Assembly (NCBI GenBank): GCA_008125075.1
Contig: VLTH01000002.1
Span: forward strand, 3,220,146 to 3,272,743
Origin: Acetivibrio alkalicellulosi
Lineage (GTDB): Bacteria > Bacillota > Clostridia > Acetivibrionales > Acetivibrionaceae
Direction of reading: 5' to 3'
Length of the DNA stretch: 52,598 nt
The notes beneath the pieces are model-generated. The model was not told where the DNA came from, did not search any database, and worked only from the letters and a program-made list of their open reading frames with translations. Positions 36,455 to 52,252 of the stretch are shown one piece after another; the first letter of the stretch is position 1, and every line of letters starts with the position of its first letter. Made by a program: the position numbers and the translations under genes.

Positions 36455-37891
36455 TTACTCCTTACTAAGTAATTGATCTATGGCATCTTGTGCAACCTGC
36501 TTATTTGCTTCAACTGCCTGTGCCACAGTCATGTCTCCTGAAAGAACTGCTCCTATAACATCTCCCATAGGAAAGCCAGGTACAAAATCATATAACTCTA
36601 TCTTACTTTGATTTGCCGACACCTCTATTGCAATCTTAAGATCTTCTTCTATCAGCCATTGTTGCTCTAACCATTCCATAGTACTGTCATCTCTTATGTC
36701 AGGATCATCACCAAAAAACCATAACAATTCTTCAAGCACCTGATATACTTTTTCAGGCTCTTCAACTCCTTTTGGTATATAAAATCCATCATGAGTTATA
36801 GAACAGGTTTTTCCACTTTTATTTTCTGGACCTTTTGGAAATGGCACAATGCTGTAATCATAAGGCAATTCATTTACTTCTGAAAGCATCCACGATACTA
36901 GGGGGAAAAATAAAATTCTTCCTTCACGATATGCATTAAAATTAGCATCATAATCCCAAATGTCTTCTCCTGCATTATATACAACCTTGTCAACGTTGTA
37001 CAAATTATTTATAAACTCTAATGCTTCCATTGTGTTTGGATTATCTAGCCCCTGTTTTCCATTAAAATCATCAAAAACAAATCCATCATTAGCTATAATA
37101 AAATTTGATATGGCATAGTTTATAAATCCACCATAGCCAAATCTGTCTACATTTCCATCCCCGTCTGTATCAGCAGTTGCTGCCTTTGCATACTCTAAAA
37201 ACTTGTCCCAATTCCAGTTGTCAGGGTTATTGTTATATATTTCGCTTGGTGAATCCATTCCAATATCCTTTAGAATAGATTTATTGTATGCCATAAATAC
37301 TCCATTAACAGGTATTCCAACAGGAGCTACTCCATATTCACCGTCCAATAAATGTCCTAATGATTGTACTGCAATATTGTCTGTAAACACATCTGAGTTT
37401 GGCAATGCATACTCACTTATAGACATAAGTAAATTATTAGCAATTGAGGGTACTGCAAAATTCATAGGAAGAAATGTTACATCTGCATAAGGCGTACCAG
37501 ACATAACAGAAGTAACCAACTTAGATCGAAGTTCTCCCCATGGTACATTAATAAACTCTATTCTACAATTATACTTTTCTTCAACTCTTTTAAGATTGTT
37601 ATATTTTGCAATGTGCTCAGGTAAAGAACTTGCTGGATCTGGCTGTGACATGTTACTATGGGGAACTACTTGCCACCAGCTAGATACTTTTATTGTTCTT
37701 CCACCTAGATCAAAAGCTTCAAACTTATCTCTTGGATCTGCTTTTGACTTTTCATCACCATTACTTTCAGGTGATTGAGTTTCCATTTGAATATCTGGCC
37801 TTTTTTCAGTAGTATCTTCACTACATGAAACAATGGATATAAACATCATAAGTGATATTATTACTGCTATTAATTTTATAAATCTTTTCAT
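36455..37891 (-). CDS. extracellular solute-binding lipoprotein of a sugar ABC transporter
   Basis: This 478-aa lipoprotein begins MKRFIKLIAVIISLMMFISI and has a lipobox-like SIVSC, so it is probably anchored outside the membrane. A charged linker (about 23-55) precedes the family 1 binding-protein fold: WGELRSKLVTSVMSGTPYAD, FMAYNKSILKDIGMDSP, WNWDKFLEYAKAAT, YDYSIVPFPKGP and HDGFYIPKGVEEPEKVYQVL. A Ca-site-like DTDGDGNVD segment is present. ATG at 37891 follows GGAGGATTTT. It is the last gene of the cluster, separated from the permeases by an R1 palindrome. The substrate is unknown; the mannosidase suggests mannooligosaccharides. Confidence 0.9.
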   Translation of the reverse strand: MKRFIKLIAVIISLMMFISIVSCSEDTTEKRPDIQMETQSPESNGDEKSKADPRDKFEAFDLGGRTIKVSSWWQVVPHSNMSQPDPASSLPEHIAKYNNLKRVEEKYNCRIEFINVPWGELRSKLVTSVMSGTPYADVTFLPMNFAVPSIANNLLMSISEYALPNSDVFTDNIAVQSLGHLLDGEYGVAPVGIPVNGVFMAYNKSILKDIGMDSPSEIYNNNPDNWNWDKFLEYAKAATADTDGDGNVDRFGYGGFINYAISNFIIANDGFVFDDFNGKQGLDNPNTMEALEFINNLYNVDKVVYNAGEDIWDYDANFNAYREGRILFFPLVSWMLSEVNELPYDYSIVPFPKGPENKSGKTCSITHDGFYIPKGVEEPEKVYQVLEELLWFFGDDPDIRDDSTMEWLEQQWLIEEDLKIAIEVSANQSKIELYDFVPGFPMGDVIGAVLSGDMTVAQAVEANKQVAQDAIDQLLSKE

Positions 37892-37924
37892 AACAAAATC
37901 CTCCTTTTTACATTTCAGCATTCC

Positions 37925-38028
37925 TTAGGAACACTGATAACATAACTTCCACTACTGTTTCACTTCAGGCCTTATTTGATGCCAAATAGGCCACGTGAAA
38001 AGTGGAAGTAATATTTCAGCGTTCCTTA
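37925..38028. repeat. R1 palindrome, copy f, inside the transporter operon
   Basis: TTAGGAACACTGATAACATA and TCAGCGTTCCTTAA bound an about 100-bp palindrome with the core GGCCTTATTTGATGCCAAAT. It fills the gap between the permease stop (38026) and the binding-protein gene. Confidence 0.85.
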
Positions 38029-38994
38029 ACCAACTATGCCACTTCTCTCAACACCTTCCATAAAGAATCGTTGTAATATAAGGTATATTACTATAACAGG
38101 CAGTATGGTTAAAAGCACTGCTGAATTGGTTATTAGCTCAACATGTCTCGGGTCTGTTATTCGTTCAATTTGAGCTAAAGAGCCTGCCACATTAGGAAGT
38201 CTTAATGAAATCATTTCTGCATTTGACATAAAAAGAGAAGTCATAAAAGTGTCATTATACTGCCATACCAATGAAAACAAGGCAACTATAACAATTGCAG
38301 GAACTGCATTGGGTAACATAATTCTAAAAAATATTTTTATAGCACCTGCTCCATCTATTAATGCAGCTTCTTCTATTTCCTTAGGTAAACCTCTAAAAAA
38401 CTGCCTGAATATATAAATATATAAACCTGAACGCAGTCCCATACCAGTTATTGTCATTAAAATAATTGGGGCTTTGGTATTAAGTAAATTAATTGGTTGT
38501 CCACCATTAAACAATGAAATTATTCCAAAAATATCAAAATATCTAAACTGGGTATATAAAGGTACCATTATTGTATGTATCGGTACAATTATTGTTAAAA
38601 TTACACCCCCAAATAATATTTTTTTAAAGGGAAAGTCAAATCTTGCAAACCCATACCCAACCAATGAACATATAAGAGTTTGTATAATCATTAGTAATAA
38701 AACAAAACTAAATGTTTTATAAATCACTGGTAAATAATTTAGCTTTTCTACAGCTATTTTAATATTGTCTAAAGTAGGATTCATTGGTATAAGATAAATC
38801 AAAGGATTATATACCTCTTTTATGCTCATAAATGAATTACTTACTACTGTTATAATAGGCCCTAATATTACATAGGCAATGCAAATTAAAAATATCCACC
38901 TCAAAACAAAAATCAAAGTATCTTTGCATTTGGTTTTAAATCTATACTTTTCCCTTGCGTAATATTCTGGGTTTATAAGCTTAGCTAATTTCAC
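38026..38994 (-). CDS. carbohydrate ABC transporter permease (MalG type)
   Basis: This 322-aa membrane protein has six predicted helices and the cytoplasmic EAA loop EIEEAALIDGAGAIKIFFRI ending MLPNAVPA, which contacts the ATPase. The long first periplasmic loop contains NSFMSIKEVYNP, and the C-terminus FFMEGVERSGIVG is typical of MalG-like (CUT1) permeases. It pairs with the next upstream permease gene. No ATPase gene is in the cluster, so a shared MsmX-type ATPase is likely; that is inference. Confidence 0.93.
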   Translation of the reverse strand: MKLAKLINPEYYAREKYRFKTKCKDTLIFVLRWIFLICIAYVILGPIITVVSNSFMSIKEVYNPLIYLIPMNPTLDNIKIAVEKLNYLPVIYKTFSFVLLLMIIQTLICSLVGYGFARFDFPFKKILFGGVILTIIVPIHTIMVPLYTQFRYFDIFGIISLFNGGQPINLLNTKAPIILMTITGMGLRSGLYIYIFRQFFRGLPKEIEEAALIDGAGAIKIFFRIMLPNAVPAIVIVALFSLVWQYNDTFMTSLFMSNAEMISLRLPNVAGSLAQIERITDPRHVELITNSAVLLTILPVIVIYLILQRFFMEGVERSGIVG

Positions 38995-39006: not shown

Positions 39007-39975
39007 CTAATTGTAATAAAAGGTCTTCTTTGATATTATCCAGCTTGCAAAGACAAGAATAAGGCATATAATTAAAGTATTTATTATTGACATTGCTGAG
39101 CTAAGTCCAAAACGCATATTAGTAAAAGCAGTGTTTTTGGCAATTTCAACAACTTCACTTAATACAAATGAATCAATAATTGTATATACTACGTTAGTCA
39201 GTATTAGAGGACTAACCATTGGCAATGTAACTTTCCAAAAGGTTTCATAAGCTGTTGCTCCCTCTATTTTAGCTGCCTCGTAAAGTACTCCTGGTATAGA
39301 CTGAAGGGCTGCAAGAAAAATAAGAATTTGTACACCTGATGACCTTACAATATCATAGACTCTGTTAACTGCATCCACTATGTATTCTAAAAAAACCAGC
39401 GGAAAACCAAAGTCTGTAAAAATGACAAACAGGTAATATATACTAAACCCAGAGTCTTTTCTAACCTCTGGTGGTATGGTAGAAACTCCTTCCACCAACA
39501 TATTCATTGCTGACTCTAAAGCACTTACAATAGCGGGTGACAAAAGTATTACCGGCAAGAAAAATATTGCTCTCATAATTGTCCTGCCTTTAAACTTACC
39601 ATTTAAAACAATTGCAGTAAACAGACTAAAAAATATAATCAGAGGAACATCCAACAACATATTGCCAACAGACTGAGCTAATGTTCTATTGAAAGATGCA
39701 TGACTTGCAACTGCAAAAATATAGTTTTCAAGTCCTGCAAATGTCAACGAATAGCCTTGTCCAGCGGGATCAATAGTTACCCTGCTAAAACTATATATAA
39801 ATGCACTAGCAAGATTACGCACAAAAAACAATAAAAAACCTATAAGCCACGGCAATATAAAAACATATCCTAAAACCATCTTTTTTTGCCTTAAGGATAA
39901 CTTGCTCTTTTTTACAACTATTTCTTCTTCATTTTCTAATGTTTTTTTATTAATTTTCTCTTTTTTATTTTTCAA
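39007..39975 (-). CDS. sugar ABC transporter permease (MalF/LacF type)
   Basis: This 322-aa protein has a basic N-terminal tail (MKNKKEKINKKTLENEEEIV), six helices starting at MVLGYVFILPWLIGFLLFFV, and the EAA loop LYEAAKIEGATAYETFWKVT followed by LPMVSPLI. Its extra-cytoplasmic loops are longer than usual (about residues 150-200). Its start overlaps the 3' end of the DUF5696 gene by 11 bases, showing coupling in one operon. Confidence 0.92.
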   Translation of the reverse strand: MKNKKEKINKKTLENEEEIVVKKSKLSLRQKKMVLGYVFILPWLIGFLLFFVRNLASAFIYSFSRVTIDPAGQGYSLTFAGLENYIFAVASHASFNRTLAQSVGNMLLDVPLIIFFSLFTAIVLNGKFKGRTIMRAIFFLPVILLSPAIVSALESAMNMLVEGVSTIPPEVRKDSGFSIYYLFVIFTDFGFPLVFLEYIVDAVNRVYDIVRSSGVQILIFLAALQSIPGVLYEAAKIEGATAYETFWKVTLPMVSPLILTNVVYTIIDSFVLSEVVEIAKNTAFTNMRFGLSSAMSIINTLIICLILVFASWIISKKTFYYN

Positions 39976-42562
39976 TAGATGTGCCCCCCTTTACAACAGC
40001 GTAGCTTTTTCCACCAATAATATTTCCATCAACATTTACACTATAATCATTATAATTAACAAATACAGACATTTCATTTTCATAAATTACTTCTTTTACA
40101 CCTTCGGAATGTATACGGTGTTTTATCATTTTTTGATTTCTTAATCCTGATAAAACCTTAGATACTTCATTATATATTTCAACAGCCTCATCAATCCAAT
40201 CTCTAAAATGAGTAGAAAACATAAACTCTAATGAAGTATTCTTTAATGAAGATGTCTCATCATAAGTCCAGGTGAAATATGGCGCAACCCCATACTCTAT
40301 CATTTTTAATATAAAATCTTCCTTATTGTATGCACTTTCTAAATTTATGGGATGGCCTGCGTAATCAATGGAACCATGCACTACCATTTGGTAAAAGGGA
40401 ACTTCCACATCTACAATACGAAACATATTCATATATGTAGGAATTCCAATCAAATTACTGGCAAAAGGAAGACAATAGGCATTTCCCCCTTTAATCATTA
40501 AATCTTCATTCAAGGAACTTAATTTTTTTAATTGATCTACAGCTATGTGTTTTGAAAGTTCTCTGTCAACAGGTCTTTTTCTCCTTTTATCAGAAGGAAG
40601 CACATCTCCTAAATCCCTTAGTGATAATGAGTCCATTTCTAAAGGTGAATATGTCCTATTAAATTTATCTACATGCTTTATCAAAGCTATAGGTGATACT
40701 AGGTAATACATACTCTCTGGAAATCTTGTAAACATTCTCATGGTTGATTGATTATAAGGGCTGTGTATTACATTCATTTCAGAAATATATCTAGAAGCTT
40801 CAAACATAGGTATAAATGAACTACTTTTATACCTAACTTGATAAAATGAAACATCCGGATATAATTTCCCACCTGTATCAATAAGCCCATCTCTTAAACT
40901 AAGTAATCCCTTTTGCCCTCCTAGTTTTCTTTCAACTTTAACTGATTTTGCAGCATCATGGTAATATCCATCATTAAACCATCCTAAATACCTAAGTCTA
41001 ATATCATTTACTCCCTGGCTGTTTAAGCTGTCAACAATAGTTTTTGCTTCACTAAAACTAGTTACAGAACTAGTGGATCTGTATGGTACTCCCATAAAAG
41101 TCTCCCTTTTTTCAATCCCTCCTAGTATGTCAAGATAAAAGGGTAGTTTTTCCTCCCTGACTTTAGGAGTCAGTACATTGTTTGTTATCAAATAGTTCCT
41201 GTAGAGATTTGCCATGCCTGAGTAATGGGCATTTTCCTCTGTCAAAAATACATATCTTATTTTTATGTCACCACTATACATTTCCTGGTCAATAACAGGA
41301 ATATCCTCCTGAGCACCAGACACTCCAAACATGGAAAGAAGTTCATAATCTCTTACAGTAAAGTAACTGTTGACAAAGTTGTACGAGTGAGTTTTTCCAC
41401 TTATATCTGCCCTTATAGTTCCAAGTGACTCACCCTCTTCAATTATTGCAAACCATCCACTGTTACCTTTTTTAGCACCAAACACAGGTAATCTTACTGG
41501 CTCTGTAATCTGGGTTCTTGTATAGCTTACAGTCAATGGATTCATGGCATAAACATGTTGAACATAAGGGTCACTGGCCGTTTTTCCATTATTAAAATTT
41601 ATAAGAGAACCACTGCCATTTGGAACAAACATGTATCCTTCATCCTCTAAACTACCTGCTCCAAAATATCTTAAAATATCTATTGTACCTAATTTCTCTG
41701 ATTCTCTTTCCTTTATTTGTTGGGTTGATATTGTTACAACTAAACTGTCATCATCTAATCTATAGTCTAAAGGTATCTTAAAATATGGTTTTTCTACTTC
41801 TATAATATTGCCACTTAATTCATTATCATAAGCTAAGTCCTCCTCAGTATACCCAGCCTTTTTAAATGCAGTTAACATTCTATTTAAAATAATTCTTGAG
41901 TCCTCTACACTACTTCTACGTTCTAAAAATCCTTCTTTATTTAAAGATGCTACATATTGTCTTGTCACTTCTTTTACTTCATCTTCATCTAAATTATCCA
42001 ATATTTTTTCTTTAAGTCTTTCTTCTGTAATATACTTAGGAAGAGCATCAATTCCCATTGATAAATCACCTAGAACATATTTAATTCTAATACCATCTTT
42101 TATTTTTTGTATTTCAAATTGCTCTCTTAAAATACTGTCCACATAGTTGTTCATAGATCCCTCATTTCGATTTTTATCATAGTACCGAATTATTATCTGA
42201 GATGATAATAGTTCTTTTGTGGTAGAATTGGCCAAAGGATCATTGTTTCTATCTACAGGATTAGAATAAAAAATTTCACTGCTTCTTTTATCATAAACAG
42301 CTATTTCAGTAGTTTTTTCGTTTATATAAAGTTTAAGGGTATCATTCTCATGGGCAAGAGACATTCCCCTTACATTATTTTGAGAATCCTTAAGAGGTAT
42401 AAATTTAGTTCCCTCCTCAAATTGATATGTCTTTGCAAATGACAGATACTCAGGAAGCTTAAAATATTCAAAATACAAATATGCAAATGATATGGAAGCT
42501 ACAAGAAGAATAGCTCCTAATGCTGTAATTATAATATTTTTAAGCTTTATCTCCTTTATCAT
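39965..42562 (-). CDS. DUF5696 membrane-anchored protein
   Basis: This 865-aa protein has one N-terminal membrane anchor (IIITALGAILLVASISFAYL) and a large outside part. The C-terminal two thirds look like a DUF5696 TIM-barrel region related to glycoside hydrolases (FYLDILGGIEKRETFMGVPY, GVNDIRLRYLGWFNDGYYHD, YLVSPIALIKHVDKF, MVVHGSIDYAGHPINLESAY, YGVAPYFTWTYDETSSLKNT). A catalytic pair cannot be assigned. This family recurs in Paenibacillus and clostridial clusters with YIP1 and sugar transporters, to my knowledge without a known function. It lies between the YIP1 gene and the permease pair. Confidence 0.85.
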   Translation of the reverse strand: MIKEIKLKNIIITALGAILLVASISFAYLYFEYFKLPEYLSFAKTYQFEEGTKFIPLKDSQNNVRGMSLAHENDTLKLYINEKTTEIAVYDKRSSEIFYSNPVDRNNDPLANSTTKELLSSQIIIRYYDKNRNEGSMNNYVDSILREQFEIQKIKDGIRIKYVLGDLSMGIDALPKYITEERLKEKILDNLDEDEVKEVTRQYVASLNKEGFLERRSSVEDSRIILNRMLTAFKKAGYTEEDLAYDNELSGNIIEVEKPYFKIPLDYRLDDDSLVVTISTQQIKERESEKLGTIDILRYFGAGSLEDEGYMFVPNGSGSLINFNNGKTASDPYVQHVYAMNPLTVSYTRTQITEPVRLPVFGAKKGNSGWFAIIEEGESLGTIRADISGKTHSYNFVNSYFTVRDYELLSMFGVSGAQEDIPVIDQEMYSGDIKIRYVFLTEENAHYSGMANLYRNYLITNNVLTPKVREEKLPFYLDILGGIEKRETFMGVPYRSTSSVTSFSEAKTIVDSLNSQGVNDIRLRYLGWFNDGYYHDAAKSVKVERKLGGQKGLLSLRDGLIDTGGKLYPDVSFYQVRYKSSSFIPMFEASRYISEMNVIHSPYNQSTMRMFTRFPESMYYLVSPIALIKHVDKFNRTYSPLEMDSLSLRDLGDVLPSDKRRKRPVDRELSKHIAVDQLKKLSSLNEDLMIKGGNAYCLPFASNLIGIPTYMNMFRIVDVEVPFYQMVVHGSIDYAGHPINLESAYNKEDFILKMIEYGVAPYFTWTYDETSSLKNTSLEFMFSTHFRDWIDEAVEIYNEVSKVLSGLRNQKMIKHRIHSEGVKEVIYENEMSVFVNYNDYSVNVDGNIIGGKSYAVVKGGTSIEK

Positions 42563-42573
42563 ATATAGCCCCC

Positions 42574-43191
42574 TTAAGCTCTAAAAATTATTTCTATATA
42601 TATGCTTCTCATAAAAAGATATATTTGTTGAATCAGTGTAAATGTTAAGAGAATTAAAAATATAATAATCAGCATGGATATACCTGTAATAATGAAAGTT
42701 GCTATTGTCTTAGTCAGTGAATAATTGTGTACAGTCATAATTCCTACAAACATTAGCAGCAAAAACCATGTAAATGCAACTCCAATAATTAAGTAATAGA
42801 AAGCTTCTTCATTATCTGCAACCACATTCCCAAAAATGGTAGCAGGAATTAAAGCCATTATCAAAGGTGTCAAAGAATATGAGGTAGCCATAGCTATGTC
42901 CTTAAGCTTCCCTTCACCATCCATAAGTGTAGTAACAGACCAATTTGCACTGCACCATAGTATATAAAGTGTAACTACTGCAATCAAATCCATTAATGTA
43001 TTTAAAGTAAGTGGATCTACCTTATTTACTGTAAAACCAGCATATTGCCTGTTTATTGAATATGACAACCATAAGAGAATAATATTTATTATTGCTATGC
43101 TCATCTTGCCCTTTTTCTCGTATTTCATAGTATAAAATCCATCTAGTGGATGTGTTATTACATATAGAGGAAATTTAATGTTATTAAGCAT
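42574..43191 (-). CDS. YIP1 family membrane protein
   Basis: This protein of about 205 aa has a short cytoplasmic N-terminus typical of YIP1 proteins (ITHPLDGFYTMKYEKKGKMS) and five membrane segments (about 34-48, 67-88, 104-124, 134-155 and 165-190). The ATG at 43191 is 10 bases after GGAGG; a GTG at 43197 is an alternative. It overlaps the end of the NHL/TPR gene, so the two are coupled. Its role in the cluster is unknown. Confidence 0.82.
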   Translation of the reverse strand: MLNNIKFPLYVITHPLDGFYTMKYEKKGKMSIAIINIILLWLSYSINRQYAGFTVNKVDPLTLNTLMDLIAVVTLYILWCSANWSVTTLMDGEGKLKDIAMATSYSLTPLIMALIPATIFGNVVADNEEAFYYLIIGVAFTWFLLLMFVGIMTVHNYSLTKTIATFIITGISMLIIIFLILLTFTLIQQIYLFMRSIYIEIIFRA

Positions 43192-44635
43192 TTTCACACT
43201 TCCTCCTTAACACTATTTTGTTTTTAAATATTTTAAAGACTATAAAACAAATAAGCAACACCATTAAAGCTGTTAATACATAGCCTAAATTAGCCTTTAA
43301 AACTTCATTTCTATATCTCTTAAACGCTATCGAGTAGTATTTTTGATCCATTCCAATCTTAAAGTATTTCATTGCCTCTTTGTTGTTCCCATCAGCTAAA
43401 AGAGCTTTTCCAACGCCAACATATGCTAATTCAAAGTTTGCATTAAGTTTTAAAACCTTACTCCAAAACTTTGCAGTTTCTTCATCCCTGCCTTCATGTT
43501 GTAGAGCTATTGCTGTGTTTATATAACTTCCATAATTTGTAGTCTCAAATATTATAACTTCTCCTAAATCCCTGTCCAATACAATAAGGTTTTCATCTAA
43601 TTCATCAATGGCAACCGGCCTTCTAAAAGTACCTGTCTGAGTTCCAACTCCACCGAATATGTATAATAAATTGCCCTGATGGTCATATGTAAAAATTCTT
43701 CCCCTTCTAGAATCTAAAACCGAATACATTCTGTTATCACGGACTATTATGTCAACAAACCTAGAGGGTCCTCCATACCTGCCTATATGCGTGTAATAAT
43801 GATCTCCTCGTACAGGAGCATTTACAGGCCTTCTTAAAACATCCTCCCCGCTAGGATTAAGTCTTTTAACTGTCTCATTTGAAAAGTTGTCAATATTAGT
43901 TGTATAAATAAATCCACCCGAATCAATATCCATATTTGTAAATTCAGTAGGAACAAATAACTGCTGTCTTTGCCTTTGCTCCTTTGTAGATAAAGACCTC
44001 CATATAATGTCTGTAAGGCTTACATTTACTTTAATAGTTCCAACATATCCAAAAAAATCTCCCTCTTCATCAAAATTCATTATCCCCTGAAGTACATTTC
44101 TTGCTATTACAAACACCCTGTCTGCATAATCAACACATACTTTAAGTGGTGCAAAAATAAAGTTTTCAGGAAATAGCTCTGACTTAGGGTCTGCTATTAC
44201 TTTTATTAAATCACCTTTTCTTGTTAATGCAACTATTCTTCTATTATCTGTATCTGCAATATATATGTCACCTTTTTTTGTCACATAAATTCCATGGGGA
44301 TTGTTAAAAGTGTCCTCTTCCCCATCATTTATAAATTTAGATATTGTTTCAACATGATTCCATTTATTGTCAAAAACAACAATCCTGTTGTTTCCCGTAT
44401 CTAAAATAAATATTTCTCCATCTTCTGTAACGTGCATATCTTCAGGCCTTTGAAAAGATCCAACACCTAAGCTGTTTCCATCCACACTTTTTATAGGCAC
44501 ATAAGGTGCAGGAGAAGGCACCACATTAAATCTGAAATCATAGGTATAGCTCTCATATGGAACATTAGCACCAAATGATGAAAATGAAAATATAAATATG
44601 ATAAAACCTACTAATAAAGCTACAGGCCTCTTCAT
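43184..44635 (-). CDS. secreted NHL-repeat/TPR protein with C-terminal membrane anchor
   Basis: This 483-aa protein has a signal peptide (MKRPVALLVGFIIFIFSFSS), an NHL-type beta-propeller with repeats such as FQRPEDMHVTEDGEIFILDT, FNNPHGIYVTKKGDIYIADT and FRRPVAIDELDENLIVLDRD, then two TPR-like helices pairs (about 373-435: AEFWSK-type repeats including ELAYVGVGKALLADGNNKEA), and a membrane helix (about 448-468) followed by a basic tail. The propeller would be outside the cell. It overlaps the YIP1 gene and lies 10 bases after the upstream permease gene. NHL propellers bind ligands, and this could be a sensor or binding module. Confidence 0.85.
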   Translation of the reverse strand: MKRPVALLVGFIIFIFSFSSFGANVPYESYTYDFRFNVVPSPAPYVPIKSVDGNSLGVGSFQRPEDMHVTEDGEIFILDTGNNRIVVFDNKWNHVETISKFINDGEEDTFNNPHGIYVTKKGDIYIADTDNRRIVALTRKGDLIKVIADPKSELFPENFIFAPLKVCVDYADRVFVIARNVLQGIMNFDEEGDFFGYVGTIKVNVSLTDIIWRSLSTKEQRQRQQLFVPTEFTNMDIDSGGFIYTTNIDNFSNETVKRLNPSGEDVLRRPVNAPVRGDHYYTHIGRYGGPSRFVDIIVRDNRMYSVLDSRRGRIFTYDHQGNLLYIFGGVGTQTGTFRRPVAIDELDENLIVLDRDLGEVIIFETTNYGSYINTAIALQHEGRDEETAKFWSKVLKLNANFELAYVGVGKALLADGNNKEAMKYFKIGMDQKYYSIAFKRYRNEVLKANLGYVLTALMVLLICFIVFKIFKNKIVLRRKCENA

Positions 44636-44645
44636 TTAGCTCCCC

Positions 44646-45503
44646 CTATTCCTTCATGCCTGATGTGGACATTGTCTCTAATATATTGTTTTGAGCAATT
44701 ATAAAAAATACAACAGGTACAATCATTAGTATAAATCCAACTGCACTGCCTACTCCTGCTCTGGCAACTCCACCCTGTATTATTTGATTTAAAGCATAGT
44801 TTAGAGGTTTTAGCTGCTCGCTTCTTAAAAATATACTGCCATTGTTGCCCCACAAAAATTGAAACATTAATATAGTAAGAGTAAGCCATGCAGGCTTTAC
44901 ATTTGGCATAATAATAGACCAGTATATTCTAAACTCATTTGCCCCATCAATTCTTGCAGACTCTATAATGGAATCGGGAATCTGCTCTATAAACTGTTTC
45001 ATTAGATAAAGTCCTAATGAATATGAACATGCAGGAAGTATAAGTGCTAAATATGTATTATTAATCCCTAAGGCTGATATAATCATATAGTTTGGTATTG
45101 CTGTTACATTATGTGAAAACATCAGGGATAAAACTACAATTGAAAACAGTATTTTTTTACCGGGCATTTTATGTTTTGCCAGTGGATATGCAGCTGCTGA
45201 AGCAAAAATCACATGTCCTAAAGTACCAAAAAATGTTATGATAACTGTGTTTAATATGTATCTGCTAAAAGGAACCCATGACTGGGACATTAAAATAAAC
45301 AAATCAAAGAAGTTGTCTAAAGTGGGGTTTCTAACAAAAATCCTGGGTGGAAATAAAAATAATTCATGTAGTGGCTTAAAAGCATTATTTATTATAAATA
45401 CCAGAGGTAGTGCCATAAATATCCCTACAATTGTAAGGAATATAAAGAGCACCATGGTACCTGCTGTTGACCTATTAACACGTTTTACTCCATATCTTAA
45501 CAC
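44646..45503 (-). CDS. carbohydrate ABC transporter permease (MalG type)
   Basis: This 285-aa permease has six helices and the EAA loop SIIESARIDGANEFRIYWSI ending IMPNVKPA. KPLHELFLFPPRIFVRNPTL is the usual first outside loop of CUT1 MalG-like proteins. It lies two bases after the partner permease and just before the NHL/TPR gene. It differs clearly from the permease at 38026-38994, so the cluster has two distinct transporters. Confidence 0.93.
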   Translation of the reverse strand: MLRYGVKRVNRSTAGTMVLFIFLTIVGIFMALPLVFIINNAFKPLHELFLFPPRIFVRNPTLDNFFDLFILMSQSWVPFSRYILNTVIITFFGTLGHVIFASAAAYPLAKHKMPGKKILFSIVVLSLMFSHNVTAIPNYMIISALGINNTYLALILPACSYSLGLYLMKQFIEQIPDSIIESARIDGANEFRIYWSIIMPNVKPAWLTLTILMFQFLWGNNGSIFLRSEQLKPLNYALNQIIQGGVARAGVGSAVGFILMIVPVVFFIIAQNNILETMSTSGMKE

Positions 45504-45505
45504 CT

Positions 45506-46465
45506 TTAAGTCCCCACCCTTCTTAATAGTCTTTGAATTCCCTTATTTGTTCCAACCATGAGCAAGAATAGTATTGATGCAATTGCTGAGGCATATCCCA
45601 TTTCAAATCGAATGGTACCAAAATCAATCAAGTGGGTTACAACTGTCTCACCGGCATAGTTGACACTAGGGAATCCTGCTAGTTGTATTGAGATCTCTGA
45701 CACTGCAAAAGCCTGTGTTATCTGTATTACTGCACCAAATAAAAGCTGTGGCTTCATTGATGGAAGGGTAATAAACCAAAGTTCCTGCCATCTATTAGTA
45801 ATGCCATCAACAGCTCCTGCTTCGTAAAGTGTTTTGTTAACAGTCTGAATACCTGCAATAAATGCAAGAAATCCAGTTCCTAAGCTTAGCCACAACTGAA
45901 CAATAATTAATATTGGAAGAATATATTCCTCTGTCTTAAGCCATTGAACTGGCTCCATTATCAGGCTTAAGTTCATAAGAAAACCATTTGCAAAACCATA
46001 CCTGTCACCAGAAAAAATTATTCTCCATATAAAAAATACATTTCCCGAAATAGATGGAGCGTAGAAAACAAGTGTCAATACAGCCCGTAGTTTCCTGGGA
46101 AATTCATTAATTATCCACGCAAATAAAAAACATGCTATATAACTTATAGGTCCTGTGACAACTGCAAAAAGCAAAGTATTTTTTATAGCTGTAATAAATA
46201 TATCGTCCTCTAGAAATAATCTTGTATAGTTATTCCATCCAACAAACTTTGGCACTTCTAGCATGTTAAAGTTGGTGAAGCTAAGTACTATAGATGCTAT
46301 TACAGGTAAAAGAGTAAAGATAAAAAATAATATAAAATATGGTGCCATCAAAAAATAAGACTGTTTATTTTTCTTTATACTATCCGCTAAAGAACACTCA
46401 TTTTCTTTTCTCTTTTCAGTTTTAAAGACTACTTCCTTGTTGCTGCTTATTATAGGCTTTTCCAT
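45506..46465 (-). CDS. sugar ABC transporter permease (MalF type)
   Basis: This 319-aa permease has a charged N-terminal tail, six helices from YFLMAPYFILFFIFTLLPVI, and the EAA loop TLYEAGAVDGITNRWQELWF followed by ITLPSMKPQL. It is the first permease downstream of the giant binding protein, with a 274-bp gap that holds a large palindromic element. The start has a GGAGAG ribosome site. Confidence 0.93.
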   Translation of the reverse strand: MEKPIISSNKEVVFKTEKRKENECSLADSIKKNKQSYFLMAPYFILFFIFTLLPVIASIVLSFTNFNMLEVPKFVGWNNYTRLFLEDDIFITAIKNTLLFAVVTGPISYIACFLFAWIINEFPRKLRAVLTLVFYAPSISGNVFFIWRIIFSGDRYGFANGFLMNLSLIMEPVQWLKTEEYILPILIIVQLWLSLGTGFLAFIAGIQTVNKTLYEAGAVDGITNRWQELWFITLPSMKPQLLFGAVIQITQAFAVSEISIQLAGFPSVNYAGETVVTHLIDFGTIRFEMGYASAIASILFLLMVGTNKGIQRLLRRVGT

Positions 46466-46508
46466 ATGGCTCTCCTTATTTAAACTTATAGCGGATACAT
46501 ATTTTTTA

Positions 46509-46676
46509 AGTGAAGAAAAACATGGAAGAAATATTGTGAAGCAAGTTGTAGAGCCTGTTAATGCGACGAGGAAAGGGAGAGCATTGTTTGAGCGATAGCG
46601 AGTTTTGCTCGACCCCGAGGAGCTTTTACTGGCTCTAAACTGCGTAACTTAAGTTTCTGGAATGTTTTTCTTCACT
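46509..46676. repeat. R3 element, full copy: 168-bp near-palindrome inside the operon
   Basis: AGTGAAGAAAAACATGGAAG (46509) and the complementary right arm ending TTTTTCTTCACT (46676) bound an element with inner GTTGTAGAGCC/GGCTCTAAACT arms and a central GAGC/GCTC hairpin. It occupies the gap between the giant binding-protein gene and the permease genes. Confidence 0.8.
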
Positions 46677-46739
46677 TTCAATAATACACCCACTTACAGA
46701 TATCTTTATAAGAGCGATAGTACTTTAAACAGTTTACTT

Positions 46740-49691
46740 CTAATCAAGTCCAAATTCTTTTCTCTTATAGGTTATTTCATCATTTATATAACGTACATAT
46801 TCTGTAATTGCCTCTCTTGGCTCAAGACTAACACTTCCCATTAGTCTTCTAAATTTATTATCTTCTGTAACGACAGTGTAAAAGGCATTGTTTATATGTC
46901 TTGAATTAAAATACCCTCCAGGTATCTGAGGAATTCCTTTTACATTTTCAAGTTGCTGGGCTAGGGCTCTATAGTCATTAATTGGCCAAGGGAGATTTGC
47001 AAGTGCTTCTAAGTTTGCAGTGGGATATCTTGCAGCAGGTCCCATCAAAGCTTCCATTTCAACACCAAACCTGGTTTGAGTTTGTGCCGATACCCACCAC
47101 TTCATAAATTCCCATGATGCCTCCTTGTCCTTTGACTTTTCCATCATAATACAAGCCAATCCTGTAGCAGGCACATCTCTTCTAATACTTCCATCATCCT
47201 TCACCGTTCCTGGAACAGGTGCAAACCCCCAAAGCCCTCTTATTTCAGGAGCAAAAACCTGTAGAGTATTGTACATGGTATAGTCAGAAATAACCAATGG
47301 CATCTCACCTGTTCTAAATCTATTTATACCATCAAACTCCCTTTCCAGCTTATAATCAGTGTAATATTCTGTAAACTCTCTGAATGCTTTTATTGCAACA
47401 TCTGTATCAAGAGCCGATGCTCTTTTATCATCTGTATAATACTGGCCTCCATTTTGATATAAAAACATTCCAAACACGGCCTCTGAAACTGGCAATACAT
47501 TAATGCTGTTTATATCATAATAGTCCATAGGTAAAAGTCCAAATCCCATTTGATTTTTGCTAAGCACCGATATTGTTGTTTTAACTTCATCCCACGTATC
47601 AGGATACTGTAAATTCAAATCTCTTAAGATATCTTTTCTATAAAAAAGCATTTTAAATATTAATTGCTCTGGCAAGGCAAAACATTTATCTTCAAATGTA
47701 TAAGGCACCATTGCACTTTCATGAAACTGACCTATTACCTCATGGAAATCTTCAAATGAAGTCAAATCAACAACAGCATTTCTCATTCCATAATTCATAG
47801 GTATATCATTCCATACCTGCATGGCAACGTCTGGCCCTTGTCCCGATAATGTTGCTGGAAGCAATGTTGCCATATCTACCAGCATTAGATTAACATTAAT
47901 GCCTGTTTTTCGGGTAAAATCCTCATCTATCAAAGCTTTCATTGTGTTAGCCTGATCTCTGCCTGTTCCCACCCATACAGTAATTACTCTTTCATCTTTA
48001 TCTTTAGTGACATTTCCTATTGCATTGTAATTCACTATAAAAGAATAAAATAAAGACTTTATTTCATGCACAACTCTATTCCAAAATGAATTTTTTAGCT
48101 TTGGGATAGATTTGTCAGATGATAATATATATATCTTATCTAACTGAAGTGGCTGCTCCATAGCACGAATCATCCAATCTGCCATAGACCCCATGTTTTG
48201 CTTGAATTGATCTATTTGTCTGGTTATAAGCTCAACATCCCTGCACAATCTGTCCAGCTGGTCTCTCATAGAAATTAATCCAGCTTCTCTGTCTCCAATA
48301 TTCCCAGCCATTTCCTCTATCTTTTTAATTATTAAATCCAGCCGTTCCTTTTCCACCTTCATAGAATCTACAATTCCTGGTATACTTTTTTCCACCTGGT
48401 AGTCCCGCCACCTATCGGGAGAAGTCCCAGTAACACTAAGTATTTTTCTGTATAGTCTATTTAAGTTTCTAACACCTGTTTCAACTTCTCTTATAACTTC
48501 TGAAAACTCACCTAAAACAGCTTCCATTCGTATTGTGTTTTTACCTTCTTTAAAATAAAATAAATATGGCTCTTCATCTCCTAAAACCTCTATTCTCCAA
48601 TCCCTGTGATGCCTAAATGGAATCCTTTCGGCGTTAGAAAAAGGAACCTTTCCGTTTATATACAATTTTCTCGATGTGTAGATGCCTCTAACAAAATTCT
48701 GCTTTACATTAAACCCTAAATTATATAGTCCTGACTCAGGCACATCCACTTCCCATTCAATCCATTGGCCTGCAATCCTCCAGTTATATCCTCCGATTGT
48801 ATTATTTAAATTTAATTTTGGACTATAAGGAGTAACAGCTGGACTTGAATTGTCAGCATCTGGGTAGAGCATCTGAGATGACTTTAGACTGGCATCTTCT
48901 GCCTCAAAATATAAAAGTCTACCTAAAACTTCTTTGTACCCATTTTCCTTGTATATTTTAAGCTTCTCGGCGTATGTTGGTATTTCTTCTTCCTGATAAA
49001 TCCTTATTTTTCTTAAAACCATAGGCTCTCTTATAGATACAATTGTCAAAGAATGAACCCCTTTAGAAAAATAGAATTTAAAAGGTGTTGTATAATGGCC
49101 CTGGTAGTCTTTAGCAACTGCTTTAATCCAGTCAGGAGATTCTATTTGACTAGGCCTTAGATCATTTCCCTGATTATCCTTTAAAACATTGTGGGGACTA
49201 TCAATCCAGAGTCTATCAAATTCAACATTATTGACCTCTGAAAAAGGCAACTGGCCATTTATAAATATTGCCCTTTGTATGGCAGAATTTTTTCCTTCTA
49301 TAGGATAGTATTCAAAAGAAATGTTATATAATCCTGCTTCTTTTACTTCCACTTCATATGTAATAGAACCTTCTTCTTTAGTTAGCACCGACTTACCTTC
49401 CATGCCCTGGAAGTTTTCTAATATTTCTAATTCCATATTAAAAACATCTGTGTAAGAATGTGCATCAATTAAGTATTCTCTTTGAGGAAATTCCTTATCT
49501 TTATGTTTTGCAATATAGGTAGAATAGTTAATGACATCTGTGTATGATTGCAGCATTTCATAATAATTGTGTGCTGCATTAACAGAAGTTTCAAGAGTAT
49601 CTTCAAAATTTGCATAACAATAGTTACTTAATATAACTATTATAAGCAATAATAAAACTGACTTTTTTAAAATTGCACGCCTTAACAACAA
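46740..49691 (-). CDS. giant solute-binding protein with N-terminal carbohydrate-binding-like modules
   Basis: This 983-aa exported protein (signal MLLRRAILKKSVLLLLIIVI) is about twice the usual size. Two related beta-sandwich-like modules come first: about 75-235 (AGLYNISFEYYPIEGKN, AIFINGQLPF) and about 255-415 (SGLYNLGFNVKQNF, KLYINGKVPF, YLFYFKEGKNTIRM). A predicted coiled coil follows (about 430-525), then a family 1 binding-protein domain (about 565-983: ITVWVGTGRDQANTMKALID, GQGPDVAMQVWNDIP, FRTGEMPLVISDYTMYNTLQ, EASWEFMKWWVSAQTQ). TTG at 49691 follows GGAGGG. No lipobox is seen. The design suggests capture of polymer or cell-bound sugar before transport by the adjacent permeases. Confidence 0.88.
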   Translation of the reverse strand: MLLRRAILKKSVLLLLIIVILSNYCYANFEDTLETSVNAAHNYYEMLQSYTDVINYSTYIAKHKDKEFPQREYLIDAHSYTDVFNMELEILENFQGMEGKSVLTKEEGSITYEVEVKEAGLYNISFEYYPIEGKNSAIQRAIFINGQLPFSEVNNVEFDRLWIDSPHNVLKDNQGNDLRPSQIESPDWIKAVAKDYQGHYTTPFKFYFSKGVHSLTIVSIREPMVLRKIRIYQEEEIPTYAEKLKIYKENGYKEVLGRLLYFEAEDASLKSSQMLYPDADNSSPAVTPYSPKLNLNNTIGGYNWRIAGQWIEWEVDVPESGLYNLGFNVKQNFVRGIYTSRKLYINGKVPFSNAERIPFRHHRDWRIEVLGDEEPYLFYFKEGKNTIRMEAVLGEFSEVIREVETGVRNLNRLYRKILSVTGTSPDRWRDYQVEKSIPGIVDSMKVEKERLDLIIKKIEEMAGNIGDREAGLISMRDQLDRLCRDVELITRQIDQFKQNMGSMADWMIRAMEQPLQLDKIYILSSDKSIPKLKNSFWNRVVHEIKSLFYSFIVNYNAIGNVTKDKDERVITVWVGTGRDQANTMKALIDEDFTRKTGINVNLMLVDMATLLPATLSGQGPDVAMQVWNDIPMNYGMRNAVVDLTSFEDFHEVIGQFHESAMVPYTFEDKCFALPEQLIFKMLFYRKDILRDLNLQYPDTWDEVKTTISVLSKNQMGFGLLPMDYYDINSINVLPVSEAVFGMFLYQNGGQYYTDDKRASALDTDVAIKAFREFTEYYTDYKLEREFDGINRFRTGEMPLVISDYTMYNTLQVFAPEIRGLWGFAPVPGTVKDDGSIRRDVPATGLACIMMEKSKDKEASWEFMKWWVSAQTQTRFGVEMEALMGPAARYPTANLEALANLPWPINDYRALAQQLENVKGIPQIPGGYFNSRHINNAFYTVVTEDNKFRRLMGSVSLEPREAITEYVRYINDEITYKRKEFGLD

Positions 49692-49743: not shown

Positions 49744-52203
49744 CTATAAAAAGGTATCAAATACACTTCTTATTTTTAAGCTATCCTTAAGTACTTTAGC
49801 ATCTATATTATTTGATACACTGCTTTTCATTATATCAATAGTCTTTTGTACACCTGGAATTAAGTCAAAATAGTTGTCATTTAATCTAATGTCAGTGCCT
49901 TCTGTCCTAAGCTCCACATATTTAGCCATTCCTTTGGAATTAAGACAAATTATAAATTTATCACTCTTTTCTTCTACTTGGATCTTTATTTCAGGATTAA
50001 TAAAGAAATAGTGCTTTGCTTTGACAAAAAGATGTACACCACTATGAATAATTTCATCTTCTAGTAAAAGCTGGTAACCAATATACATTTCTCGCTCTTT
50101 TTCTTCACAGTCTACAATATCTTTAAAATCTAAACTCTCAAAAACTCCTGTACTAAGAGAATTTATCTCAAATTCCATGCTTCCTTCTTTTTGAATAAGG
50201 GATTCTTTGTTTCTAAGGGTCCAAAGTATACCGCCCTTTACATTCTTCATACTCTCATTTGTGACATTAAACTCAATTAAAGTGCCTTTATCATTTATAG
50301 ATAATAAAACAGGAGCAAAAAATCTTTTAGCAAAATAATGAAGTGCCTTCCACCTTCCATAGTAATCAATAGATGACCATGAGGCAACAGGCCAGCAGTC
50401 ATTTAATTGCCAGTATATAGCCCCCATGCACCTTCCCCTGTTTCTTCTCCAGTGTTCAACCCCATATTTTATTGCTTCTGCCTGTAATATTTGAGAAACA
50501 TAGACTAATGAGTTAAAATCTTTAGGGTATTTAAAGTTCTCCGACAGATAGTGTAGTATTTTCCCATTTGCAGCACCGTTTTTCTGGTGCCTTTCCATAA
50601 CATAAGAGAATATATTCCTATCTTCTGGCAATGTAAATGATTCAATTGTTTTTTCTGAAGGAAATGATTGAAATCCAAATTCCGAAACAAATCTAAAGAA
50701 AAAATTCCTATACTGAGTAAATGGTTTTAAGCCGTGCCATACATCCCAATAATGTGCATCTCCAACATTTTCATTGTTTGGATCTTCAAAACCTCCCCCA
50801 GAAGAAGGAGATGAAGGCCAGTAAAAAGAGTTTGGATCACATTCTTTTACAACCTGAGGAAGGTAAATTTCAAATAGTTTTATATATCCCGTCTTGTGTC
50901 TGGCTGTTTTTGGAAAATTCCAATAAAACCAACCGCTTTCTATTTCATTATTTCCGCACCAAAGTCCCAAACAAGCATGGTGCCTTATTCTTTTCACGTT
51001 ATCTTTTGCCTCTTGAACCACATTTTCAATAAATTCATCAGTCACTTCATATACAGCACATGCAAACATAAAATCCTGCCACACAATCAGTCCATATTCA
51101 TCACACAATTCAAAAAAGTAGTCTTGTGGGTATATTCCTCCACCCCATACTCTTATCATATTAAAATTAGCCTGTACACTACTTTCAATAAGGTACCTTG
51201 TCTTTTCCCTGTTGCATCTTGGAAGAATACTGTCTTCTGGAATATAATTTGCACCCATGGCAAATATGTCAACTCCATTTACAACAAAGTAAAAACTCTC
51301 TCCCCACTCATCCTTCTTTTGAATGACTTCTATAGTCCTAAGTCCAATATTTAAAGTAGAACTGTCCATACAGCGGCTACTTTGTTTTAGCCGGACTTCA
51401 ACTTTATACAAAGGGTGCTCACCATATCCATTAGGCCACCACAACTTAGGGTTTTCAATATCTATATTTATATAGTTTACCTCATCTTTAGCTACCACAC
51501 TTACACTTTTTACTTCTCCATCTGGTGAAGTAACAGTAGCTTCAAGTTCTAAGACTTCCTTGCTCCAATTATCTATTTCAACCTTTATATTAAGATTAAC
51601 TTTATCTTTATCATGATTTTGGGTTATATAAACATCATTTAATTTACCAAAACTATAGCCTGTTATATAAATATCTCTCCAAATACCCGAATCGGGAATT
51701 TGAGGACCCCAATCCCATCCATATGTACAATGTCCCTTTCGTATATGAGGAAAACCAGCAACGGCATCTTCAGAACCCCACAAAGGATTTTCTTTTTGTT
51801 TTTGCTGAATATATTTTAATGGAGATTCAAAAAGGATATGTATTGTATTTGAACCAGCATGTAAAAACTCTTTTATGTCAAATTCATATGTCCTGTGCAT
51901 ATTTTCTGTTTCTCCAATAGTTTTGCCGTTTATACTTATCACACTTAGAGTATCAAGGCCTTTGCAACACAAAAAAAGCCTGTCCTGATTTAACAACTCA
52001 TTTTCTACCTCAAACTCACGTTTATATTCATATTCTTTTTCAGCTATTGAAAGAGCTTTTGGCTCGTTATCTCTGTAAAAAGGATCCTCAATAGAATTAT
52101 TACTTAACAGATCATGAAAAACAGAACCTGGTACATTTGCTTCAATCCATATGCTATCCTCCATGCTTTTCATTTGCCACTTACCGTTTAAATACAATCT
52201 CAT
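49744..52203 (-). CDS. GH2 beta-mannosidase
   Basis: This 819-aa enzyme has no signal peptide and should act in the cytoplasm, releasing mannose from short beta-mannosides. The sugar-binding domain (LNGKWQMKS, ANVPGSVFHDLLSNNSIEDP, YGWDWGPQIP) and the Ig-like domain precede the TIM barrel. Acid/base Glu420 lies in WCGNNEIESG and nucleophile Glu508 in FVSEFGFQS, both typical of GH2 mannosidases. ATG at 52203 follows GGGGGACAGCAAGGT. It is the first gene of the cluster and the only enzyme in it, so it defines the likely substrate class. Confidence 0.93.
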   Translation of the reverse strand: MRLYLNGKWQMKSMEDSIWIEANVPGSVFHDLLSNNSIEDPFYRDNEPKALSIAEKEYEYKREFEVENELLNQDRLFLCCKGLDTLSVISINGKTIGETENMHRTYEFDIKEFLHAGSNTIHILFESPLKYIQQKQKENPLWGSEDAVAGFPHIRKGHCTYGWDWGPQIPDSGIWRDIYITGYSFGKLNDVYITQNHDKDKVNLNIKVEIDNWSKEVLELEATVTSPDGEVKSVSVVAKDEVNYINIDIENPKLWWPNGYGEHPLYKVEVRLKQSSRCMDSSTLNIGLRTIEVIQKKDEWGESFYFVVNGVDIFAMGANYIPEDSILPRCNREKTRYLIESSVQANFNMIRVWGGGIYPQDYFFELCDEYGLIVWQDFMFACAVYEVTDEFIENVVQEAKDNVKRIRHHACLGLWCGNNEIESGWFYWNFPKTARHKTGYIKLFEIYLPQVVKECDPNSFYWPSSPSSGGGFEDPNNENVGDAHYWDVWHGLKPFTQYRNFFFRFVSEFGFQSFPSEKTIESFTLPEDRNIFSYVMERHQKNGAANGKILHYLSENFKYPKDFNSLVYVSQILQAEAIKYGVEHWRRNRGRCMGAIYWQLNDCWPVASWSSIDYYGRWKALHYFAKRFFAPVLLSINDKGTLIEFNVTNESMKNVKGGILWTLRNKESLIQKEGSMEFEINSLSTGVFESLDFKDIVDCEEKEREMYIGYQLLLEDEIIHSGVHLFVKAKHYFFINPEIKIQVEEKSDKFIICLNSKGMAKYVELRTEGTDIRLNDNYFDLIPGVQKTIDIMKSSVSNNIDAKVLKDSLKIRSVFDTFL

Positions 52204-52252
52204 ACCTTGCTGTCCCCCATTATTATATTTATACAAATAATTCTATATAGAC

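Follow-up and report, generated by a model that had tools for sequence, protein, structure and literature searches.

Introduction

In Bacteroidota, SusC/SusD loci have a conserved core that is repeated in the genome, with the copies lying beside different glycoside hydrolases. In CUT1 ABC importers, Anaerocellum bescii MsmK provides a genetic precedent for one ATPase common to several importers, whose permeases and binding proteins are encoded with no ATPase gene nearby, the ATPase being encoded elsewhere (PMC12838199). A galactomannan cluster of Bacillus sp. N16-5 is described as combining mannan-degrading enzymes with a CUT1 importer, and as being induced by polysaccharide (PMC3542313). A further point of comparison is the enzyme DagB, which is composed of a beta-sandwich, a TIM barrel and an Ig-like domain and whose Asp486 corresponds to the catalytic Asp435 of NagBb (PMC5698469).

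The locus described here lies in a 52,598-nucleotide stretch of Acetivibrio alkalicellulosi DNA, which as a whole is called the window. Its cassette resembles the SusC/SusD loci in that the core is also repeated within genomes, beside different glycoside hydrolases, and differs from them in the lack of a TonB-dependent porin or SusD match and in the ATP-driven import that it would use. As in the shared-ATPase importers of A. bescii, permeases and binding proteins are encoded away from any ATPase gene; here, however, two permease pairs flank a block of three proteins (NHL-TPR, YIP1 and DUF5696), and the term NHL is absent from the main text of the A. bescii report (PMC12838199). The likeness to Bacillus sp. 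N16-5 consists of mannan-type enzymes beside a CUT1 importer, whereas a single CUT1 importer appears in the parts of that report drawn on here, and an NHL-TPR/YIP1/DUF5696 block is not mentioned there (PMC3542313).

A literature search by title and abstract opening, outside whose coverage most subscription journals lie, returned no description of this system of DUF5696, YIP1 and NHL proteins with sugar transporters. Since the same block recurs in many soil and gut bacteria, it probably encodes a common machine, and we consider it reasonably probable, from gene content and conservation, that this is a previously undescribed, modular glycan-capture and ABC-import machine of Bacillota, with a putative function. 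If so, a function would be assigned to three uncharacterised families (DUF5696, a bacterial YIP1 subfamily and a TPR-linked NHL propeller), a recurrent glycan-uptake core of Bacillota would be named, and the capture and import of long glycans by Gram-positive bacteria would become testable by gene deletion.

Organization of the gene cassette

The open reading frames were found where the preliminary description of this DNA had placed them, all on the minus strand, as judged from the ORF list and Pfam matches (Table 1). A Pfam scan of the ten cluster proteins also confirmed its count of two binding proteins and four permeases with no ATPase, and gave no match to the SusC/SusD and TonB-dependent porin families. 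Each of the two permease pairs has two different subunits and is accompanied by a binding protein, as in a CUT1 ABC importer, and the import step itself looks like CUT1 transport.

Table 1. Genes of the cassette and the adjoining GH2 gene, in window coordinates.
Feature	Position	Strand	Domain evidence and remarks
GH2 beta-mannosidase-like enzyme	49744..52236	-	Glyco_hydro_2_N2, Ig_mannosidase and Mannosidase_ig over cut-off; upstream of cassette
SBPL, long binding protein	46740..49691	-	SBP_bac_1 at C-terminal residues 581-872
Permease 1a	45506..46465	-	BPD_transp_1 over cut-off
Permease 1b	44646..45503	-	BPD_transp_1 over cut-off
NHL-TPR, secreted propeller, TPR and C-terminal membrane helix	43184..44635	-	NHL, 54.5 bits
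YIP1 membrane protein	42574..43197	-	Yip1 (PF04893), 52.8 bits
DUF5696 protein, one N-terminal membrane helix	39965..42562	-	PF18952, 681 bits
Permease 2a	39007..39975	-	BPD_transp_1 over cut-off
Permease 2b	38026..38994	-	BPD_transp_1 over cut-off
SBPs, short binding protein, lipoprotein-like	36455..37921	-	SBP_bac_1, 80.5 bits; IVSC lipobox-like motif in translation

In the window, the NHL-TPR and YIP1 genes overlap by 14 bp, the YIP1 and DUF5696 genes are separated by 11 bp and the DUF5696 and permease 2a genes overlap by 11 bp. The join between SBPL and permease 1a is looser, with a gap of 274 bp that contains a 190-bp repeat (window positions 46500-46690; 24-nt inverted ends, 88% complementary). 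This repeat has 46 matches in the genome, its own included, of which 40 are long and 78-100% identical (234 candidates, 40 scored). On account of its inverted ends and of these matches, it looks like a MITE-type element. A promoter scan gave 78 sites against 78.0 in shuffled sequences, and thus no excess. The genome holds a single match at E<=0.001 for each of DUF5696 and Yip1 (9 candidates scored for the latter).

Conservation of the block across genomes

Co-occurrence was analysed in 398 genomes of one phylum, taken as Bacillota, with strong matches defined as E<1e-100 for DUF5696, E<1e-20 for the YIP1 subfamily and E<1e-59 for NHL-TPR, and with at most 3 candidates scored per genome in two of the three family scans and at most 7 in the third. 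The preliminary description had named the lack of co-occurrence of the three families in other genomes as an observation that would speak against it; in fact, the genomes with a strong DUF5696 match and those with a strong match to the YIP1 subfamily are an identical set of 37 of the 398, and NHL-TPR matches strongly in all of these and, as a fragment, in one further genome (G243). These 37 carriers span 20 genera and are phylogenetically not independent. The thresholds left out nine of the 46 genomes with a DUF5696 match, two of which lie narrowly beyond the cut-off, three of the 40 with a YIP1 match and 51 of the 89 with an NHL match; among the matches listed, those left out for NHL are partial propeller matches with E 5e-20 or weaker. 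In 14 control genomes from outside the phylum, weak DUF5696 matches, below the cut-off, were present in two, and a DUF5696 scan of viral contigs found no relative.

Gene order was compared in 138 loci: 55 neighbourhoods of the phylum sample, two annotated plasmid loci, 80 named loci and the window. Of these, 136 have a distinct DUF5696 sequence. Two named loci repeat loci of the phylum sample; the named loci are the best 80 of at least 591, so that the set leans toward the window. Immediately upstream of DUF5696, 133 of the 136 loci have NHL-YIP1, fused in 37 and separate in 96, and the three others (L055, L123 and L152) are contig ends. Directly downstream of DUF5696, permeases 2a and 2b are found in 131/136; the five exceptions are four contig ends (L053, L080, L086 and L156) and L165, in which permease 2a is split in two. 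Where the sequence reaches far enough, the order is therefore kept upstream in 133/133 and downstream in 131/132 loci. SBPL-1a-1b stands directly upstream of NHL in 101 of the 136. Of the 100 loci flanked on either side by 8 kb or more of sequence, 96 have a pair-1-type permease in reach and 4 do not.

Bacteria with the core include many Paenibacillus, as well as Lachnospiraceae of gut and rumen samples. The 243-kb plasmid pNP243 of Butyrivibrio fibrisolvens (L031) holds a complete nine-gene cassette and a GH43 gene, so the cassette is not restricted to chromosomes.

Coupling of NHL-TPR, YIP1 and DUF5696

The fused and separate states of NHL-YIP1 require five changes on a DUF5696 tree of 135 tips (35 fused), against a mean of 31 in shuffled data, which indicates that the two genes were fused or separated on several occasions. 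Coding regions frequently overlap: of 135 pairs in which DUF5696 adjoins permease 2a, 116 do so, and of 98 NHL-YIP1 pairs, 88, figures that are inflated by the use of the first possible start. The distance matrices of the nine genes correlate (rho 0.74-0.92; 73 loci), which, with no neutral control, shows joint inheritance and not contact.

Copy numbers also match. Five genomes of 2.2-3.0 Mb have 8-16 YIP1 and 8-15 DUF5696 copies each, in all 54 and 53, respectively, and for 49 of the 54 YIP1 copies a DUF5696 lies no more than 3 kb away. Of the nine unpaired hits, three begin less than 700 bases from the start of their contig, and two are the YIP1 and DUF5696 of contig 9 of G062, which are 5 kb apart in reverse order, an exception that is either real or due to assembly. 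Such numbers suggest that the cassette underlies glycan specialisation in these genomes. The expanded genomes are drafts (G040, G062, G082, G135 and G165), and their 8-16 YIP1 copies recall the SusC/SusD loci.

The tight coupling as one unit, previously proposed from adjacency, is thus backed by the kept order, the repeated NHL-YIP1 fusion and the matching copy numbers. A chance neighbourhood of two transporters was rejected on the kept order, the co-occurrence and the copy numbers. From these sequence comparisons, we infer that NHL-TPR, YIP1 and DUF5696 are putatively one physical membrane complex.

The DUF5696 protein

The PF18952 match is above the curated cut-off and covers the whole model (1-612 of 612). 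The protein is laid out as an N-terminal hydrophobic segment (residues 4-34), a beta-rich domain, a barrel and a C-terminal beta domain, and its predicted model has a pLDDT of 89. The best Foldseek match is DagB (ZGAL_3152, 5opq), with E 3.5e-34, a TM-score of 0.72 by target length, an rmsd of 7.5 and 13% identity, followed by NagBb (5wzn; E 3.2e-27) and then by GH101 enzymes; altogether, 406 matches pass E 0.001, GH36 and alpha-amylase barrels among them. A profile of diverse DUF5696 sequences also finds 5opq (E 5.6e-11) and 5wzn (E 1.1e-7). The glycosidase-like barrel suggested earlier therefore corresponds, in the predicted model, to an overall GH129/DagB-like fold, with an order of domains (beta-sandwich, TIM barrel, Ig-like) similar to that reported for DagB and NagBb (PMC5698469). 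The GH129 family itself (PF11308) has matches in 0 of 199 genomes and in none of the controls.

Unlike DagB and NagBb, enzymes with a catalytic Asp (486 and 435, respectively; PMC5698469), the membrane-anchored DUF5696 protein has no carboxylate at the putative equivalent position, as placed by counting strands in the predicted model and not by residue-level superposition. The end of the putative fourth barrel strand reads Ser-Pro, and Asp and Glu are absent from positions 621-624 in all 136 sequences; at the adjoining position 620, Asp occurs in 13 of them. The usual nucleophile thus appears to be missing in the modelled barrel, which weakens the candidate reading of DUF5696 as a plain GH129 enzyme and makes it more likely that the barrel holds a glycan than that it cuts one. 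Of the earlier wording that the proteins present or trim sugar, 'present' would accordingly be the better half, and 'trim' finds no carboxylate at 621-624 on which to rest in the model.

Conserved residues are nonetheless numerous. Trp528, Arg667, Pro722, Phe723, Gly730, Asn740 and Gly758, as well as Gly309, Gly316, Gly318 and Tyr338, are invariant in the 136 sequences, which would fit a conserved ligand site. Acidic residues are retained at D658 (128/136), D718 (128/136) and E756 (135/136). D650, which follows the fifth strand, is retained in 103 of the 136 and in 27/27 of a closer set.

These residues also bear on the proposal of a DUF5696 that is catalytically active through a non-canonical site: anchored in the membrane by NHL-TPR and YIP1, such a glycosidase would trim oligosaccharides at the permease mouth. 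We regard this as rather unlikely. The GH129/DagB-like fold with its similar domain order speaks for it, D650, D658, D718 and E756 are conserved widely enough for an unusual catalytic site, and the fold seems to tolerate different sites, since DagB is reported to have just one of the two catalytic residues of NagBb (PMC5698469). It is opposed by the carboxylate-free end of the fourth strand, as counted in the model, and by the variation at D650, where 10 sequences have Tyr, 7 have Ser, 5 have Thr and some have other residues.

Two positions differ between the window protein and most of its relatives: residue 341 is Asn in the window, with Asp in 133 and Asn in 2 of the 136 sequences, and residue 315 is also Asn, with Asp in 96 and Asn in 39 of the 136.

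The NHL-TPR, YIP1 and long binding proteins

NHL-TPR has hydrophobic segments at residues 1-26 and 444-477. In the single window protein the TPR is below the Pfam cut-off, but a profile built from the family finds NHL propellers as well as designed TPR proteins, the latter with E 6e-17 at profile positions 385-433.

The YIP1 score compares with a curated PF04893 cut-off of 28.6 bits. Its predicted model is all helical, with a pLDDT of 94, and many of the invariant residues lie within or beside loops. No fold match was obtained at E<=0.001 for this model against the PDB (180 weaker ones were), and no sequence match for the YIP1 profile.

SBPL has a hydrophobic N-terminus (residues 1-30) followed by some 550 residues with no domain over cut-off, in which GH115_C (174-236) scores below its own cut-off. 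Its best solved relatives are sugar-binding proteins.

Permeases and ATPase supply

The EAA loops of permeases are their usual docking sites for the ATPase. Using a loose pattern, an EAA-like loop was identified in 134/134 members of group 1a, 129/135 of 1b, 135/136 of 2a and 102/136 of 2b.

Such loops in most members of all four groups would also be expected if the locus encoded two CUT1 importers of the ordinary kind, with accessory proteins for permease assembly or stability (YIP1 as a membrane chaperone) that have no part in glycan binding; a small, helical YIP1 with many invariant residues at loops agrees with this. We find this explanation improbable, as assembly alone would hardly account for a propeller, or for a large glycosidase-like barrel outside the cell that has invariant residues.

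Searches with OB_MalK and TOBE_2, which detect ATPases that carry these domains, gave one match each, both to the same gene, located 2.4 Mb away on the same contig and encoding a 370-aa ATPase. An ATPase encoded outside the cluster, as had been supposed, is thus represented by one MalK-type gene elsewhere in the genome, which the two transporters may share. Among the 138 loci, L032 is the only one to carry an ATPase close to that of the genome (E 1e-125; next 3e-34) and, of five locus ATPase candidates scanned, the only one with OB_MalK.

Proposed mechanism

In the modular glycan-capture and import machine that we favour, NHL-TPR, YIP1 and DUF5696 would form one membrane complex, acting as a unit with the pair-2 permeases, which the second importer (SBPL and pair 1) would usually join. 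Nearby glycoside hydrolases would release glycan chains. On the cell exterior, a chain would be held by the NHL propeller and by the DUF5696 barrel, which is GH129-like and probably degenerate as a catalytic domain, and SBPL may also hold released chains. The TPR stalk and YIP1 would organise the complex in the membrane and pass the chain on, so that it reaches the binding proteins and permeases. Permeases 2a/2b and 1a/1b would then import the glycan, driven by the ATPase encoded elsewhere, and the GH2 enzyme would finish mannan or glucomannan oligosaccharides in the cytoplasm.

A more far-reaching reading, which we put forward tentatively and as possible, is that of a Gram-positive counterpart of Sus: NHL-TPR, YIP1, DUF5696 and 2a/2b would be a repeated core in which a dead glycosidase barrel and a propeller provide an ABC importer with a loading dock for glycans, and swapping enzymes and binding proteins would adapt it to different polysaccharides. 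If true, it would provide a role for a bacterial YIP1 protein.

Gene neighbours and cargo

Sugar uptake, as originally suggested for the locus, is backed by the permeases, the binding proteins and the glycoside hydrolase neighbours. The family of a neighbour was taken from a single representative of its cluster, with a tally that covered 106 of the 177 representatives as a further source. Among the 80 nearest loci, the best of at least 591, clusters of GH26, GH2-mannosidase, GH5, GH113 or GH130 are near 58, and those of a stricter set (GH26/GH113/GH130) near 53; GH30 lies beside one locus and a CBM65 protein near 20. In the wider set of 55 phylum-sample and two plasmid loci, mannan-type enzymes are found in 6 of 57 by either definition, with GH43 with CBM6, GH27, GH42 and GH29 as single neighbours; L056 has a further GH5-like neighbour, outside the cluster. 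Many neighbours have no sugar link, for instance a helicase and a nicotinate phosphoribosyltransferase.

The mannan cargo that had been considered before is therefore likely in the clade of the window (58/80), and does not hold as a general cargo (6/57). A mannan-only system was set aside on the latter count and, with such varied neighbours, the core looks general and the cargo variable. In the window itself, beta-mannan or glucomannan oligosaccharides are the most likely cargo, as its GH2 gene and its nearest relatives suggest; the GH2 enzyme starts with no signal-like segment.

Regulatory neighbours have to be weighed as well, since the three proteins could be a sensor complex that reports surface glycan and controls the operon, transport being carried out by ordinary co-regulated importers. 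A LacI-type regulator cluster is present in 55 of the 80 nearest loci (best 80 of at least 591) and in 6/57 of the wider set, and the Butyrivibrio cassette is adjoined by a histidine kinase and a response regulator. Such a complex is nevertheless improbable: many loci lack the regulator or have another one, whereas the adjacency to permeases 2a/2b is kept, and Pfam gives no DNA-binding or kinase family over cut-off in the three proteins. Glycan capture and import by the complex is still the reading that we prefer.

At L155 (14880-16751) and at 19 more of the 80 named loci, the cassette is followed by a protein of about 613 aa; the representative of its cluster has three CBM65 matches and none to a catalytic family. 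Flavin-dependent oxidoreductases are neighbours of the Paenibacillus plasmid locus, and flavin-dependent (luciferase-like) oxidoreductases lie beside the cassettes of L032 and L037, hinting at either another kind of cargo or a separate neighbouring operon.
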